Source: an uncultured Victivallales bacterium
GTDB lineage: Bacteria; Verrucomicrobiota; Lentisphaeria; Victivallales; UBA1829
Direction of reading: 5' to 3'
DNA: 64,000 nucleotides
Assembly: GCA_944391115.1 (NCBI GenBank)
Contig: CALXSJ010000004.1
Span: 165,957 to 229,956 of the forward strand
The notes beneath the pieces were generated by a model. That model was not told the DNA's origin, did no database searches, and saw only the letters and a list, made by a program, of their open reading frames with translations. The position numbers and the translations under genes were made by a program. Every line of letters begins with the position of its first letter. The first letter of the stretch is position 1. Positions 56,346 to 60,921 of the stretch are shown in pieces.

Positions 56346-56768
56346 TCAGTAAAAACGCATACTTTCCGGATCGAAATGCCGCTCCATTCCCGGGACATCA
56401 ACGGACCTTCCGGAGGACGAGGCGGGAAGCGCTCCCCCCGCCAGCTGAAGCCGTCCGGCGGCAAGATCGGCAAGACGCTCCATCGTGTCGCCGTAGGACT
56501 CTTTGATCTTGGCGGGGACATTGCTTCCCGGGCCGCGTTTGTAAAGCTCATACTCGGCGATCCGGAGCGTCCACTCCGCGACCATTTCATCCTGCGGCAG
56601 CGGAAGCGCATAGCGGACGGAGGCGAAACTTTCCACGACCGCCTCGGCACGGGAGAGAATCCGCTCGACAAGCACTTCAATCTCCTCTTCCGGAACATCC
56701 GCAAGGTTCGCCAGTTTCACGGGCGTGACCCTTTCGCGGAAAACTTCCAGTGAAATGTATTTTCCCAT
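56346..56768 (-). CDS. Mu-like phage Gp36 family protein (head-tail adaptor)
   Basis: A 140-residue protein matching the Gp36/DUF1320 family: an N-terminal MGKYISLEVFRERV, a helical core (ILSRAEAVVESFASVRYALPLP) and YELYKRGPGSNVPAKIKE. In Mu-like phages it lies downstream of the major head gene and is thought to join head and tail. AGGAAAT precedes it. Here it is the last phage gene; no tail gene follows. Confidence 0.8.
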   Translation of the reverse strand: MGKYISLEVFRERVTPVKLANLADVPEEEIEVLVERILSRAEAVVESFASVRYALPLPQDEMVAEWTLRIAEYELYKRGPGSNVPAKIKESYGDTMERLADLAAGRLQLAGGALPASSSGRSVDVPGMERHFDPESMRFY

Positions 56769-56793
56769 AAGAATTTCCTGATTTCAAATGAAC

Positions 56794-56816
56794 GCCCTGA
56801 TACGGAAGATCAGGGC
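56794..56816. other. Perfect 8-bp inverted repeat between gpT and Gp36 genes
   Basis: GCCCTGAT and ATCAGGGC flank a 7-base loop. No T-tract follows on the minus strand, so it is more likely an mRNA processing or stabilising hairpin than a terminator. Confidence 0.5.
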
Positions 56817-56889
56817 AGGATGAAAAAAGGAAAGCGGTGAAAAGCCGCGGAAGCGCTCTTCTCTTCCGCCTTCCCTTATGCGGAATGCG

Positions 56890-57795
56890 TTACGCCGCCG
56901 CGCCGCCCCGGAAGATCAGGTGCGGAAACGCGAGGAACGCTTCTCCGCGCGCATCGGCGCCGTAGACGTATTCCTTGCGGCAGAAGACATTTTCGTCATT
57001 CTCGCCGTCAAGACAGACCAGCGAGGGCTGTTTTCTCTGCTGGACGAAAAGCGGCTTGAGAATCCCGTTTGCCGCGGCGAGGAACCAGAGATCTTCGGCA
57101 TCGCCGGAAAGTTCAGGCAGCACGAGAAGTTCCGCACTCCCGTTCCACGGATTGTCGGTGGCGCCGACTCCCGCAGAAAGTTCCCGGAGCTGGAGACGGT
57201 CCTTGAGAATCGCAAAGGCGGCGGCCTCGTTCTTGGGACCGACGATCAGGAGATCCGGAACGATCCCGAGATTTCTTCCGTTGTGTCCGCGATACTCCAT
57301 CATGCTCCGGCGCGCCGCAGCATAACTCTCTGCGGAAAGAACCGCCGTGCTGTTGTTGGCAATCGGGGAATCGCCATAGACGCGGCCCGACGAGAAAAAC
57401 GCCGTGTCGTCGATCCAGGACGGATTCGACATAAGAGCCTCGACGGCGAGATCCTGCCAGATTTTTCCGGCATTGTAACCCATCTGCGCAATCAGCGTGG
57501 AATAGATCCCGTACTGATCGTCCTCAATGTCGTTGCGCGGAATGATGACAGTATCCTCGAAATCCCGGTTGACGACCTCGATTTTCCGCGTGCTCACATT
57601 CTTGAGCTGCCGTTCGCCGATCCATTCGCGCATTCCGCCGAACTGTTCCAGGAAGGGATAGACGTTTGCGGCCGTGCCGGACTGAATCGTACCGCAGAAT
57701 TTCTGCCAGGAATCGGGCACGCGCTCAATCCCGGAAGCAAAATTCATGTTGAAGCTCTTGAAAAGAAAATCCATGTTTTTTCTGCTGATATCCAT
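56890..57795 (-). CDS. Mu-like major head protein gpT
   Basis: A 301-residue HK97-fold-type capsid protein of the Mu gpT family. Conserved blocks are seen near the N-terminus (FKSFNMNFASGI), in the middle (PRNDIEDDQYGIYSTLIAQMG) and near LGIVPDLLIVGP. The normal length and intact frame suggest a functional capsid subunit. AGGAGGT precedes the start by 7 bases. It follows the decoration protein by 20 bases. Confidence 0.88.
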   Translation of the reverse strand: MDISRKNMDFLFKSFNMNFASGIERVPDSWQKFCGTIQSGTAANVYPFLEQFGGMREWIGERQLKNVSTRKIEVVNRDFEDTVIIPRNDIEDDQYGIYSTLIAQMGYNAGKIWQDLAVEALMSNPSWIDDTAFFSSGRVYGDSPIANNSTAVLSAESYAAARRSMMEYRGHNGRNLGIVPDLLIVGPKNEAAAFAILKDRLQLRELSAGVGATDNPWNGSAELLVLPELSGDAEDLWFLAAANGILKPLFVQQRKQPSLVCLDGENDENVFCRKEYVYGADARGEAFLAFPHLIFRGGAAA

Positions 57796-57815
57796 CTCTG
57801 CACCTCCTGCATCCG

Positions 57816-58238
57816 TTATCCGATGACCTGGTTTCCGATTTCGACAATAACCTGCGAATCCGCGTCGATCTCACGAAGGACGCCGGCACGAATGTGATTG
57901 GTTCCGCCGACCTTTCCAACCGTGTGGTCGTCGATGACATAGACCGCCTTGTTGATGTCCGCCGCCGTAAGCTTCTCGTCTTCACCGGCGGCATTGTCGA
58001 ACTTGAACACGCCGCTCTTGGCGATCACGCGTCCGTCGGCGGTGAATCCTTCGGCGCGGCCGATGACGATGAGCTTCGCGGCATCCGCGGCCGGTTCCGC
58101 TTCATTGGTCGTGCCGTTGATCGCGACAATGGAGCCGGTGTAGATTTTCACGCCGTCGCGCAGGGGACGCGTGCGGTGCAGTTTCTGGGTGTGACAGAGA
58201 ATTTCGGTGGTGTTTCGTGCGTTGGAGAGAGCAGTCAT
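57816..58238 (-). CDS. Mu-like capsid decoration/cement-type protein
   Basis: A 140-residue beta-rich protein. The pattern VKIYTGSIVAING, VIGRAEGF, GVFKFDNA and AVYVIDDHTVGKVG is typical of small proteins found between gpI and gpT in Mu-like prophages, thought to decorate the capsid. It overlaps the protease gene by 4 bases (ATGA), as expected of coupled head genes. Confidence 0.75.
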   Translation of the reverse strand: MTALSNARNTTEILCHTQKLHRTRPLRDGVKIYTGSIVAINGTTNEAEPAADAAKLIVIGRAEGFTADGRVIAKSGVFKFDNAAGEDEKLTAADINKAVYVIDDHTVGKVGGTNHIRAGVLREIDADSQVIVEIGNQVIG

Positions 58239-58711
58239 CGGCAGGTTCCTTTCATTTTTCTGATTGCCTTGCGCTGGGGTTCCGTAAGTCCGAGGAGCGA
58301 AGCGATTTTCGCTTCCTCGGGAGTGAAGGCGGTATCCGCTCCGTTCTCCGGGAGAGGAGCTTCATCGGTGTCCTTGTTGTCGGGGACGATCCGCGGAGCG
58401 GCGTCGCTCCACGTCCGGAATGCCGCAAGATCGTTTCTTGCAAAATCATGCGCCCAGGAGCGCATCTTTTCCGTGAGCTTTCCGTCAGCGAAGGCCGTAC
58501 GGACCGCTTCGTCCGCCTCGTGTGCCGCCAGGAGCAGAAGCTTCTCTTCGGCGGCGTCAAGCGACTCCAGTTCATTGAGCTGAAGAAATGTCGCGAGTTT
58601 CTTCGCGTCGGCATTCAACGCGTCGATTCTTTCCAGAACGGCCTTCTGCTGTTCCAGCGGATCCGCATCCGCAAGAGCAAGAAGACCGAGTTTTTCCAGA
58701 ATCTCATTCAT
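58235..58711 (-). CDS. Internal in-frame scaffold start within gpI-type gene (Mu Z-like)
   Basis: The codon at 58711 is ATG, in frame with the protease, and AAAGGAA lies 11 bases ahead. It would yield 158 residues (MNEILEKLGLLALADADPLE...), the helical scaffold half without the protease. Phage Mu makes its scaffold Z by the same nested arrangement. Use of this start is inferred. Confidence 0.55.
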   Translation of the reverse strand: MNEILEKLGLLALADADPLEQQKAVLERIDALNADAKKLATFLQLNELESLDAAEEKLLLLAAHEADEAVRTAFADGKLTEKMRSWAHDFARNDLAAFRTWSDAAPRIVPDNKDTDEAPLPENGADTAFTPEEAKIASLLGLTEPQRKAIRKMKGTCR

Positions 58712-59254
58712 GGCTGTGTTTTTCCTTTCGTTGTAATGTGGTTGCTGCGGCTCGTCACTTGCATCATGCGCCGCGGAATCGAGGTCATCGGCCGCAAGGG
58801 CCGGAATCCCGTGCATCGCGGGATGGTTCGTGAGAGCCACCGAATGAATCGCCGACACGTTTTTCCCGCTTCGGGAAAAGTAGAGCGTCGGCGAGAAGTA
58901 ACGGTATTCGCCGTTGAGCAGATATTTTTCAGCTTCGCGCGTCCAGTATTTGACTTTCGCGCAGAGTCCCTCCGCACTTTTGCGGAGTTCTCCGATCCAG
59001 CCCGCCGCCGGAGCTTTGCCGGAGGAGAGGCTCTGATGTTCAAAATCGATGACAAGATCGCGTCCCCGCGAGACAAACTCCTGAATGACGGCATCGGCAT
59101 CCGCCTCCGTAAATTCAAATTCACCGCGCACGCCGCCTTTGGTAAAAGCCGTTTTCCCATACCGGATCAGGAGCATGGACTCGGGAAGAGTGCGGAGATG
59201 AGTATCCGACACGGGGGAAACGCCGTCGAAAAATGCAAGTCTGCTGTGTTTCAT
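58235..59254 (-). CDS. Mu-like prophage gpI-type head maturation protease/scaffold
   Basis: A 339-residue protein. The N-terminal half (LLIRYGKTAFTKGGVRGEF; VIDFEHQSL; AGWIGEL; YFSPTLYF; SVALTNHPAM) matches the Mu gpI protease family, with His in DFEHQS. The C-terminal half is charged, helical and scaffold-like, ending in MKGTCR. The start was placed at 59254 (AAGGAG 8 bases ahead) rather than the GTG at 59263. An internal start would give the scaffold part alone. Confidence 0.88.
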   Translation of the reverse strand: MKHSRLAFFDGVSPVSDTHLRTLPESMLLIRYGKTAFTKGGVRGEFEFTEADADAVIQEFVSRGRDLVIDFEHQSLSSGKAPAAGWIGELRKSAEGLCAKVKYWTREAEKYLLNGEYRYFSPTLYFSRSGKNVSAIHSVALTNHPAMHGIPALAADDLDSAAHDASDEPQQPHYNERKNTAMNEILEKLGLLALADADPLEQQKAVLERIDALNADAKKLATFLQLNELESLDAAEEKLLLLAAHEADEAVRTAFADGKLTEKMRSWAHDFARNDLAAFRTWSDAAPRIVPDNKDTDEAPLPENGADTAFTPEEAKIASLLGLTEPQRKAIRKMKGTCR

Positions 59255-59259
59255 GCCTG

Positions 59260-60519
59260 TCACTCCTTTCCGGATGCGGATTGATCCAGTTTAATGCAGA
59301 AGGTTTTCTCGACCCATGCGCAGTCCGGGGAGAATCCGCTTTCCGCGAGAATTTTAACGATCTGCGCCTTTTCCGTCAGATTCTCCGGCGAGGCATAGTC
59401 AAGTTTGAATGCCAGCGTGCCTTCCGTGCCGTAGCGGAAACGCTCCAGAGGGGCGAGAATCTGCGTATTGATTGTCTCCATAAGATTCCGGCAGTCGGCT
59501 TCGAGGATGTCGTGCCGGACATTTTCCTGAATCTGTCCCCGGCTGAAGCCCGAAGCGCTTCCGCTGGAGGCGGTCTGCCCGAGGATAAGCATGGCGAACA
59601 GTTTGTCGATGTAATCCATCCAGGCCTGGTAGTCCGAACTCGCGGAACCGGCAGGATTCAGCACCTGAAGTTCGGATCCTTCCGTCACCACTCCCGTACC
59701 GTCCGAACCGATTTTCGACAGCGACTGGAGAATCGAGGTCCGGACACTTTCATTTTCAAAATCGTCATCCCGGATTTTTGCAATGATGAACGGGATTCCG
59801 AATTTTTCCAGATAGCGCGCCCGGTCCCGCATCGCGTAATGCTTGAAAAAGTAGAGCCAGACCAGGGGGCGGAGCAGACCGCCGCGGGAACAGGGACCGG
59901 ATTGCAGTTTGTGCGTATGCAGCACAAACTGGTTCGGATGGTATTCCGCAAGGGAACGGATTCTGCCGGAGAGCGTCAGCAGCGCCGGATTGCCGCCGAG
60001 ATCAAACTGCCAGTTCGACGGATCGATTTTCCGGAAGGCGGTGATCTCCTTCCCTCCTTCGCCCCAGATGAGCGCCGCACCGGAATAGCCGAGAGCCAAG
60101 GCATCCAGGAGATGCCGCATCAGCGCATGAATCCGCGCTCTCTCAAAAATGGAACGGACTTCGGCAACATGCGCGGCATCGTCTCCCTGAATGCTCCAGT
60201 CGCACGCCAGAACCGCCAGGATGCGGGTCTGCATATGGGCGGTGACGGCAGGTTCCTTTTCAAGCAGAATCCGGTAGAGCGCGGCCTGTTCGGACGGGGC
60301 ACCCTCGTTCGCCGCCGAGAGCAGACGCCGGATCAATCCCGCATTCAGTTTCGGGTCGTTCAGCGCCGTCCAGGAAAAGGTGAATTCGTCAAAATCCGCG
60401 CCCGTGCTCCGCGGAACGGAATGAATTGTCTTCCGGATTCTCTCCTCGCGGGAGAGTCCGGATTTCGCCCGGTACTTCATGACCGGCGAAAATGTTTCTG
60501 CTGCGTGTTTTCTCGTCAT
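59260..60519 (-). CDS. Mu-like portal protein (gp29/DUF935 family)
   Basis: A 419-residue portal-type protein. RLLSAANEGAPSEQAALYRI, ARARIHALMRHLLDALALGYS, WLYFFKHYAMRDRARYLEKFG and LGQTASSGSAS correspond to the DUF935/gp29 family of Mu-like phages. The start at 60519 has AAGGAG at 8 bases; an 84-codon upstream extension has no site. It heads the module, but the terminase gene (gp28) normally before it and gp30 (F) normally after it are absent. Confidence 0.88.
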   Translation of the reverse strand: MTRKHAAETFSPVMKYRAKSGLSREERIRKTIHSVPRSTGADFDEFTFSWTALNDPKLNAGLIRRLLSAANEGAPSEQAALYRILLEKEPAVTAHMQTRILAVLACDWSIQGDDAAHVAEVRSIFERARIHALMRHLLDALALGYSGAALIWGEGGKEITAFRKIDPSNWQFDLGGNPALLTLSGRIRSLAEYHPNQFVLHTHKLQSGPCSRGGLLRPLVWLYFFKHYAMRDRARYLEKFGIPFIIAKIRDDDFENESVRTSILQSLSKIGSDGTGVVTEGSELQVLNPAGSASSDYQAWMDYIDKLFAMLILGQTASSGSASGFSRGQIQENVRHDILEADCRNLMETINTQILAPLERFRYGTEGTLAFKLDYASPENLTEKAQIVKILAESGFSPDCAWVEKTFCIKLDQSASGKE

Positions 60520-60921
60520 GGAAAGATCTCCTTGGTTTGCTATTCGCCAAGCGTCAAAGAAAACCGGGCGGAAACAAGATGTTTTCCCCGATTCTACAAA
60601 AGAAAAAAGGCTTTTCGAACTCAGAAAAAAAATCCGTCCCATCATTCCCGTGTCAAAAAAAATACATCCCGGCGCCGGTACGGCACAGGAGAAGGATACG
60701 GCAGGAACGGAAAAAAGGAGCTCGTGCAGGAAATGAAAATACCTGCGTGACACCGGCGGGCCGGCATTCACACGGAACGGCTGGAACCCGTTGGAATTGA
60801 ATTCATATGCAATGATTGCGCCGCAGCAGAAATTTTTCCGCAGGACTCCGGAAAAACGTGCGGATCAGGATGGGAACCCGGACATATCTTTCAAAATGCC
60901 GGAAGAGAAAGGAGGGGACGG
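60520..60921. other. Non-coding stretch upstream of the phage head module
   Basis: About 400 bases between the portal start and the terminator of the neighbouring esterase. A possible minus-strand promoter (TTCGAA 60619-60614, TAGAAT 60596-60591, 17-bp spacing) lies 72 bases before the portal start. I find no terminase remnant, transposase end repeat or integration site. Confidence 0.5.
60591..60619 (-). promoter_or_regulatory. Possible promoter of the head module
   Basis: TTCGAA and TAGAAT on the minus strand are spaced by 17 bp. Both depart from consensus, so support is weak. Confidence 0.35.

Follow-up and report, generated by a model that had tools for sequence, protein, structure and literature searches.

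The stretch analysed here, the window, is a 64-kb piece of contig C4 (positions 165957-229956) of G000, the genome of an uncultured Victivallales bacterium (assembly 3.66 Mb, 95% complete, 0.2% contaminated). Positions 56346-60519 of its minus strand carry a head module of five intact phage genes, all with open frames: a portal protein of 419 aa (59260..60519; Pfam Portal_Mu, 1.5e-74), a gpI-type head maturation protease/scaffold of 339 aa (58235..59254; Pfam Mu-like_Pro, 1.6e-53; PHROG 328, 3.9e-55), a decoration-type virion protein of 140 aa (57816..58238; PHROG 1731, virion structural protein, 5.1e-17; no Pfam match), the 301-aa major capsid protein gpT (56890..57795; Pfam Mu-like_gpT, 6.8e-61) and a 140-aa Gp36-type head-tail adaptor (56346..56768; Pfam Phage_Mu_Gp36, 1.7e-17). 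The ATG at 59254 is the more likely start of gpI than the alternative GTG at 59263, since it has a good ribosome site and relatives use the same start. The gpT profile matches the solved capsids 8rkc (2.5e-49) and 9jod. A putative regulatory motif, TTTGACGCT, lies on the minus strand at 60550..60558, 39 bp 5' of the portal ATG.

The module sits among host genes: ung and the acetyl-CoA hydrolase gene flank one end, the genes for acetyl-xylan esterase and a CBM9 protein flank the other, and the GC and GC3 of the head genes match those of the surrounding host genes. An earlier, sequence-only reading of the window had placed five intact head genes in this order between ung and the acetyl-xylan esterase gene, in agreement with the frames and with the Pfam and PHROG matches. 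Its statement that no other phage genes are present holds for the neighbourhood and fails for the genome, where other contigs carry two terminase genes, a tail module and the gene for a likely regulator; what it took for a minimal set is thus completed by terminase and tail genes at unlinked loci. The gp30 gene (Mu F; PF04233), which it had reported missing, is absent across the whole G000 genome, and no Mu transposition gene adjoins the head module. As gp30 is absent, gpT is single-copy in G000 and terminase and tail genes are unlinked, we rejected a Mu-like prophage.

We compared 36 genomes of the G000 family, all of them metagenome assemblies. gpT was found in 30 of them. About 12 species, from at least six genera, have the five-gene module on its own, in almost as many host contexts. 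In the group that we call clade A (G000, G016, G017, G018, G013, G015, G001, G002, G003, G004, G005 and G008), the module lies by itself within host DNA and has all five genes wherever the contig permits, G008 excepted (see below); the contigs of G017 and G003 (the latter assembly 56% complete) stop within gpI. Clade-A gpT proteins are 63-92% identical to the window copy and group in a single clade (support 0.99) that excludes phage and viral-contig copies. The remaining gpT copies come from ordinary phages, from genus g5, where a second separated system is seen, or from a syntenic cluster in genus g9; Mu-type and other phages occur in the same bacterial family. Scanning IMG/VR with the gpT profile gave four distant matches, the best at 44% identity, and no clade-A phage. 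Matches from a GTDB scan were titled Lentisphaerae, Lentisphaeria or Victivallales, except for two titled 'uncultured bacterium' and one titled 'Verrucomicrobia', the last being G002 of the same family.

Among the clade-A genomes, only G000 and G016 share the flanks of the module, and module sites are rearranged even within a genus. The acetyl-CoA hydrolase/beta-galactosidase pair of G018 and G017 has neither ung nor the module beside it, and the G017 module lies near homologues of the window's 9.5-18 kb region; because the neighbourhood is wholly rearranged in these two genomes, no clean empty site or attachment site could be read. No island boundaries were seen at the module, and no integrase was identified among the flanking host genes. 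The search for the same five genes in other genomes of the family thus returned intact orthologues in about 12 species. Together with the lack of a near-identical prophage in G000, a check named beforehand, this refutes the recent remnant that the sequence-only reading had also considered.

A stand-alone gene for the terminase large subunit (TerL, 436-454 aa) was detected with the broad PHROG 2 profile in 12 genomes, namely clade A without G003 but with G009; in G000 it lies on contig C14 in unrelated host DNA. As a stand-alone gene TerL is single in each genome, while G004 and G017 have further terminases in phage-like regions. The Walker A motif (GGSRSGKT), the NEAT motif and the RNase H-type residues are invariant across 15 aligned sequences, so that both ATPase and nuclease motifs are intact as read from the sequences. 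TerL matches solved phage terminases, including the homologue 5oe8, and the clade-A proteins are monophyletic (support 0.92). The clade-B terminase profile (A2) found no TerL in clade-A genomes other than the extra phage-type one of G017.

The tail genes were traced with a profile built on one tail gene of related phages, which led to contig C1 of G000 (87578-88339) and to counterparts in G016 and G017. A tail module stands alone in each of these three genomes; that of G000, flanked by host genes, encodes in order a 115-aa tube protein, a 237-aa protein, a 583-aa tape-measure-like protein (TMP) and proteins of 259 and 231 aa, then a collagen/tail-fibre protein, a Laminin-G-type protein and proteins of 135, 86 and 143 aa. 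The tail-tip genes encode collagen-type fibre and lectin-type proteins; the 86-aa protein is holin-like, with one transmembrane segment, and the 143-aa protein has a lipoprotein signal. Few of the downstream tail genes are named by Pfam or PHROGs, and their identity is taken from their position in phages and from the tube fold. The predicted fold of the tube protein (pLDDT 64, a modest confidence) matches phage tail-tube, neck and baseplate proteins, among them those of 6tba and 6toa, two structures of the RcGTA particle. The matches of the tube, TMP and tail genes are to non-Mu phages that occur in the same bacterial family. Further tube genes were found in G018, G013, G015, G003, G004 and G005, with genera g1, g4 and g8 represented.

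Other features of tail loci were also observed. The leader that separates the motif from the tube ATG (120-150 bp; L113, L114; L156) is strongly conserved in G000, G016 and G018, beyond what is expected of plain leader DNA. In G017, a 150-aa protein homologous to the product of a phage tail-completion-type gene is encoded on its own (contig C25, L096:7605-8057), with TTTTTGTTTGACGCT upstream; no orthologue was identified in G000. The same genome has a 2387-aa frame opening with a tail-gene (c5) domain (contig C55, L120:9980-17143), several tail-tube copies (contigs C95, C55 and C19) and a full phage (C127). The frame of a tail-gene homologue in G011 (C80:5405-6166, L119) matches apart from five in-frame TAG codons, possibly because it comes from a TAG-recoded phage.

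When the DNA upstream of portal, TerL and tube in G000 was compared, TTTTCTTTGACGCT stood far above shuffled sequence. The nine-letter TTTGACGCT, which has a single copy in the window with both strands counted, is found 35-148 bp 5' of five loci in G000. A blind scan of this genome gave 33 sites, against 22 for a reversed control, nearly all of them inside genes; five read as promoter-placed, and these precede tube, portal, TerL and two previously unrecognised genes, one for a terminase small subunit (TerS) and one for a helix-turn-helix (HTH) protein. The motif core, TTTGACGC, is present across at least six genera. It lies 31-57 bp upstream of TerL in all 12 genomes, 120-194 bp upstream of tube in g1 and g8, and upstream of TerS in 11 of 11 (33-77 bp in ten, -208 in G002). 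For portal it was seen in nine of the ten clade-A genomes with the start in hand (38-56 bp in eight, -190 in G005); the tenth, G002, has TTTGACGG at -42 instead. As a control, TTTGACGC was counted within 100 bp upstream of 534 genes around the system loci. Only 28 genes had it, 26 of them system genes (portal, TerL, TerS, the HTH gene, a decoration gene and one tail-completion-like gene), which leaves a background of about 0.4% of genes outside the system. Five phage-located TerL genes that were checked lacked the motif. These data suggest that the five loci share coordinated control.

The 143-aa TerS (contig C3) and the HTH protein (contig C10) were found solely by the genome search for TTTGACGCT. 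TerS matches Terminase_2 weakly over residues 20-92 (4.8e-4; 21.2 bits, below the gathering cut-off of 26.1), and its gene occurs in 11 of the 36 genomes, all of clade A or G009, which shares a genus with G008. The HTH protein has 158 aa and combines a four-cysteine zinc ribbon (CxxC...CxxC) with a helix-turn-helix. Its gene is present in nine clade-A genomes and in G014 (genus g8), with the motif upstream in eight of the ten, in two copies in G008 and G005. In G000, G017 and G018 the gene occupies a stable place on the chromosome, no more than about 10 kb from rpoB. The predicted fold of the protein had no significant match; the model weakly resembled winged HTH and sigma region 4, which is a lead only. 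The HTH protein is likely the regulator of the system. In G001, the HTH gene (L219) holds two in-frame TAG codons, while TerL, portal and rpoB are open.

Selection on these genes was assessed by the ratio of non-synonymous to synonymous substitution rates (dN/dS). Within and between genera, values were 0.07-0.12 for gpT, 0.09-0.18 for portal (0.09-0.11 within genus), 0.07-0.15 for the decoration protein (0.07-0.14 within genus) and 0.05-0.17 for TerL; gpI and gp36 evolve faster (0.06-0.39). Ratios of about 0.1 hold at dS up to 2. The dN/dS check proposed for gpT and portal thus gave low values for both, as expected under purifying selection. Head genes and host genes have similar dS: between G000 and G016 it was 0.23-0.41 in head genes and 0.41-0.54 in host genes, and between G000 and G018 it was 0.6-0.8 and 0.5-0.8, respectively. 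In Mantel tests of protein distances against tblastn-derived rpoB (2000 permutations), r was 0.93 for portal, 0.92 for gpT, 0.86 for both TerS and TerL, 0.84 for decoration, 0.78 for gp36 and 0.74 for gpI, and no permutation gave a value as high. Distances of gpT also correlate with those of TerL (0.93) and TerS (0.94), despite the genes being unlinked. The genes are therefore under purifying selection and follow the rpoB tree of the host, and the system appears to be inherited vertically, apart from the tail locus, which shows exchange between two species.

Collectively, our results suggest that the module in the window is probably the head operon of a chromosome-scattered gene transfer agent (GTA), a domesticated tailed phage inherited with its host. 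The DNA-packaging motor, the tail and a probable control gene lie elsewhere, all with the same motif, and these gut bacteria therefore probably inherit a DNA-shuttling particle of their own. The five G000 loci are on five contigs (C1, C3, C4, C10 and C14) of 98-328 kb each, and the loci are likewise unlinked in G016, G017 and G018. With its genes spread over several loci, a single particle cannot carry the whole set. No phage replication, integration or lysogeny genes were found beside the head, TerL, TerS and tail loci; a whole-genome search for unrelated integrases was not made. The suggestion of a domesticated capsid or GTA, one of several in the sequence-only reading, is thus supported: the genes are conserved, evolve under purifying selection, are inherited along with the host and share a regulatory sequence.

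We propose that the HTH protein, or a factor that it recruits, would act at TTTGACGCT to switch on five unlinked loci together: the head operon in the window, TerL (C14), TerS (C3), the tail (C1) and, as feedback, its own gene (C10). A prohead would be assembled from portal, gpI (scaffold/protease) and gpT, and TerS and TerL would pack it with host DNA by the headful, after which Gp36 would connect the filled head to the siphovirus-type tail. The holin-like and lipoprotein genes that end the tail locus may serve cell lysis, by which particles would leave, possibly carrying host DNA to other cells. Described GTAs operate in this manner. A fuller version of this proposal, in which an ancient and fully fragmented GTA of the Planctomycetes-Verrucomicrobia-Chlamydiae (PVC) superphylum would be turned on across the genome via one operator and a new-class zinc-ribbon/HTH activator, and in which a TerS with a retained DNA-binding domain may steer packaging to particular host DNA, is tentative and rather doubtful as a whole.

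Several observations weigh against a GTA. The genomes G008, G009, G001 and G002 yielded no tail-tube gene, and in G018 and genus g4 just two tail genes were seen together. The G008 module is without a decoration gene. Damaged copies exist, including a gpI frameshift in G018 and one in-frame TAG in the G001 gpT (L042:12014-12931), which may be errors because the genomes are metagenome assemblies. In G016 the HTH gene (L213, C20) has an in-frame TGA at the conserved zinc-ribbon Cys22, reflecting an assembly error, a pseudogene or selenocysteine. Tail genes of G000 and G016 differ by a dS of 0.02-0.19, far below the 0.4-0.5 or so of host genes, so the tail locus was recently exchanged and is not strictly vertical. 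Finally, TerS appears to keep its N-terminal DNA-binding (HTH) region, whereas the small terminases of described GTAs have no such domain, a trait that does not strictly define a GTA.

A domesticated, co-regulated particle might also have another cargo or role, for instance bacteriocin-like killing, in line with the fibre and lectin-like genes at the tail tip, or the packaging of one chromosomal region through a DNA-binding TerS. A killing particle, however, has no need of conserved TerS, TerL, capsid and portal, and the Terminase_2 match on which directed packaging would lean is under its gathering cut-off (21.2 versus 26.1 bits); we consider this alternative unlikely. Fragments of decaying prophages, intact by chance, would explain why the pieces are scattered and why a few copies are damaged in a family that harbours Mu-type and other phages. 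Chance is hard to reconcile with dN/dS near 0.1 at dS up to 2, with intact copies of these pieces in six or more genera, with TerL, TerS and head in single copy and a shared motif at every locus, and with a motif from which the TerS and HTH genes could be predicted; decay is therefore very improbable. That the motif is simply a common host promoter is opposed by the 534-gene control.

The sequence-only reading had also raised a satellite that borrows tails and terminase, and a protein or RNA container. Terminase and tail genes at unlinked loci of the same genome argue against both, leaving neither a bare container nor a satellite obliged to borrow. A phage satellite of the capsid-forming island type has in its favour a compact head cassette with no adjoining terminase or integrase. 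Nevertheless, the genome has TerL, TerS and tail genes of its own that carry the motif of the head operon, the host genes at the flanks included no identified integrase gene, and the flanks vary while the genes follow the host tree, making a satellite highly improbable. An encapsulin-like container derived from a phage capsid, suggested by the isolation of the capsid genes within the window, would need none of the portal, adaptor, protease and distant terminase with intact catalytic motifs that are conserved here, and it is scarcely credible.

Separated phage genes were also seen elsewhere in the family. In the sister genus g9, 12 of 13 genomes have a second GTA-like cluster (L055:6178-19728 on contig C4 of G029; loci L050-L059, L063, L064 and L068) in the order TerL-gpI-decoration-gpT-gp36-tube-like plus tail genes, which adjoins uvrA in most species and has dN/dS of 0.05-0.24. 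No portal gene was found within this stretch, and no TTTGACGC in the TerL upstream regions inspected. In genus g5, head, TerL and, in G007, tail genes occupy separate loci (L047, L108 and L118 in G007; L049 and L107 in G006), and the capsid lineage is distinct (about 41% gpT identity), which suggests a third separated system.

Few GTA systems are known, most of them in Alphaproteobacteria, and we found none reported for Lentisphaerota in the open-access literature. A GTA here, if true, would bring virus-derived gene shuttling to a phylum without a reported case that we could find. Scattered GTAs are overlooked because every piece resembles a prophage remnant. A shared operator offers a simple route to the scattered parts; it predicted TerS and the likely regulator from sequence alone, and through it metagenomic 'orphan capsid genes' become a testable regulon.

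Among known elements, Mu-like phages have homologous portal, gpI, decoration, gpT and Gp36 genes in the same order; they differ from this system in its single gpT locus, lack of gp30 and, in G000, non-Mu-type tail genes. Capsid-forming phage-inducible islands likewise place a capsid cassette of their own in a bacterial genome, whereas the G000 module has no identified integrase or island structure, and terminase and tail are host-encoded and unlinked. BaGTA (Bartonella), VSH-1/BhGTA (Brachyspira), Dd1 (Desulfovibrio) and VTA (Methanococcus) are independently domesticated phages of unrelated hosts; the function that we propose is analogous. FpGTA I and II of Faecalibacterium are GTAs of a gut anaerobe at two loci about 125 kb apart; they are podovirus-like and their terminase and head genes share an operon (PMC12946183), whereas the Lentisphaerota system has a long tail, at least five loci and a shared motif.

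RcGTA of Rhodobacter capsulatus and other alphaproteobacterial GTAs, including CcGTA, are also siphovirus-like and domesticated, without replication genes, spread over several loci, vertically inherited under purifying selection and served by a dedicated regulator. Described GTAs tend towards several loci, some with one or two genes (PMC11841831). RcGTA nevertheless keeps a main cluster, and it has another phage ancestor and another host phylum. GafA, the RcGTA regulator, binds the promoter of its own gene, and some of its DNA-binding regions are tentatively sigma-like (PMC9638019); its counterpart here would be the candidate zinc-ribbon/HTH protein. The Lentisphaerota system thus differs from described GTAs in its head of Mu-type gpT, portal and gpI joined with a siphovirus tail, in its separate TerS, TerL, head and tail loci, and in its new candidate regulator and operator.

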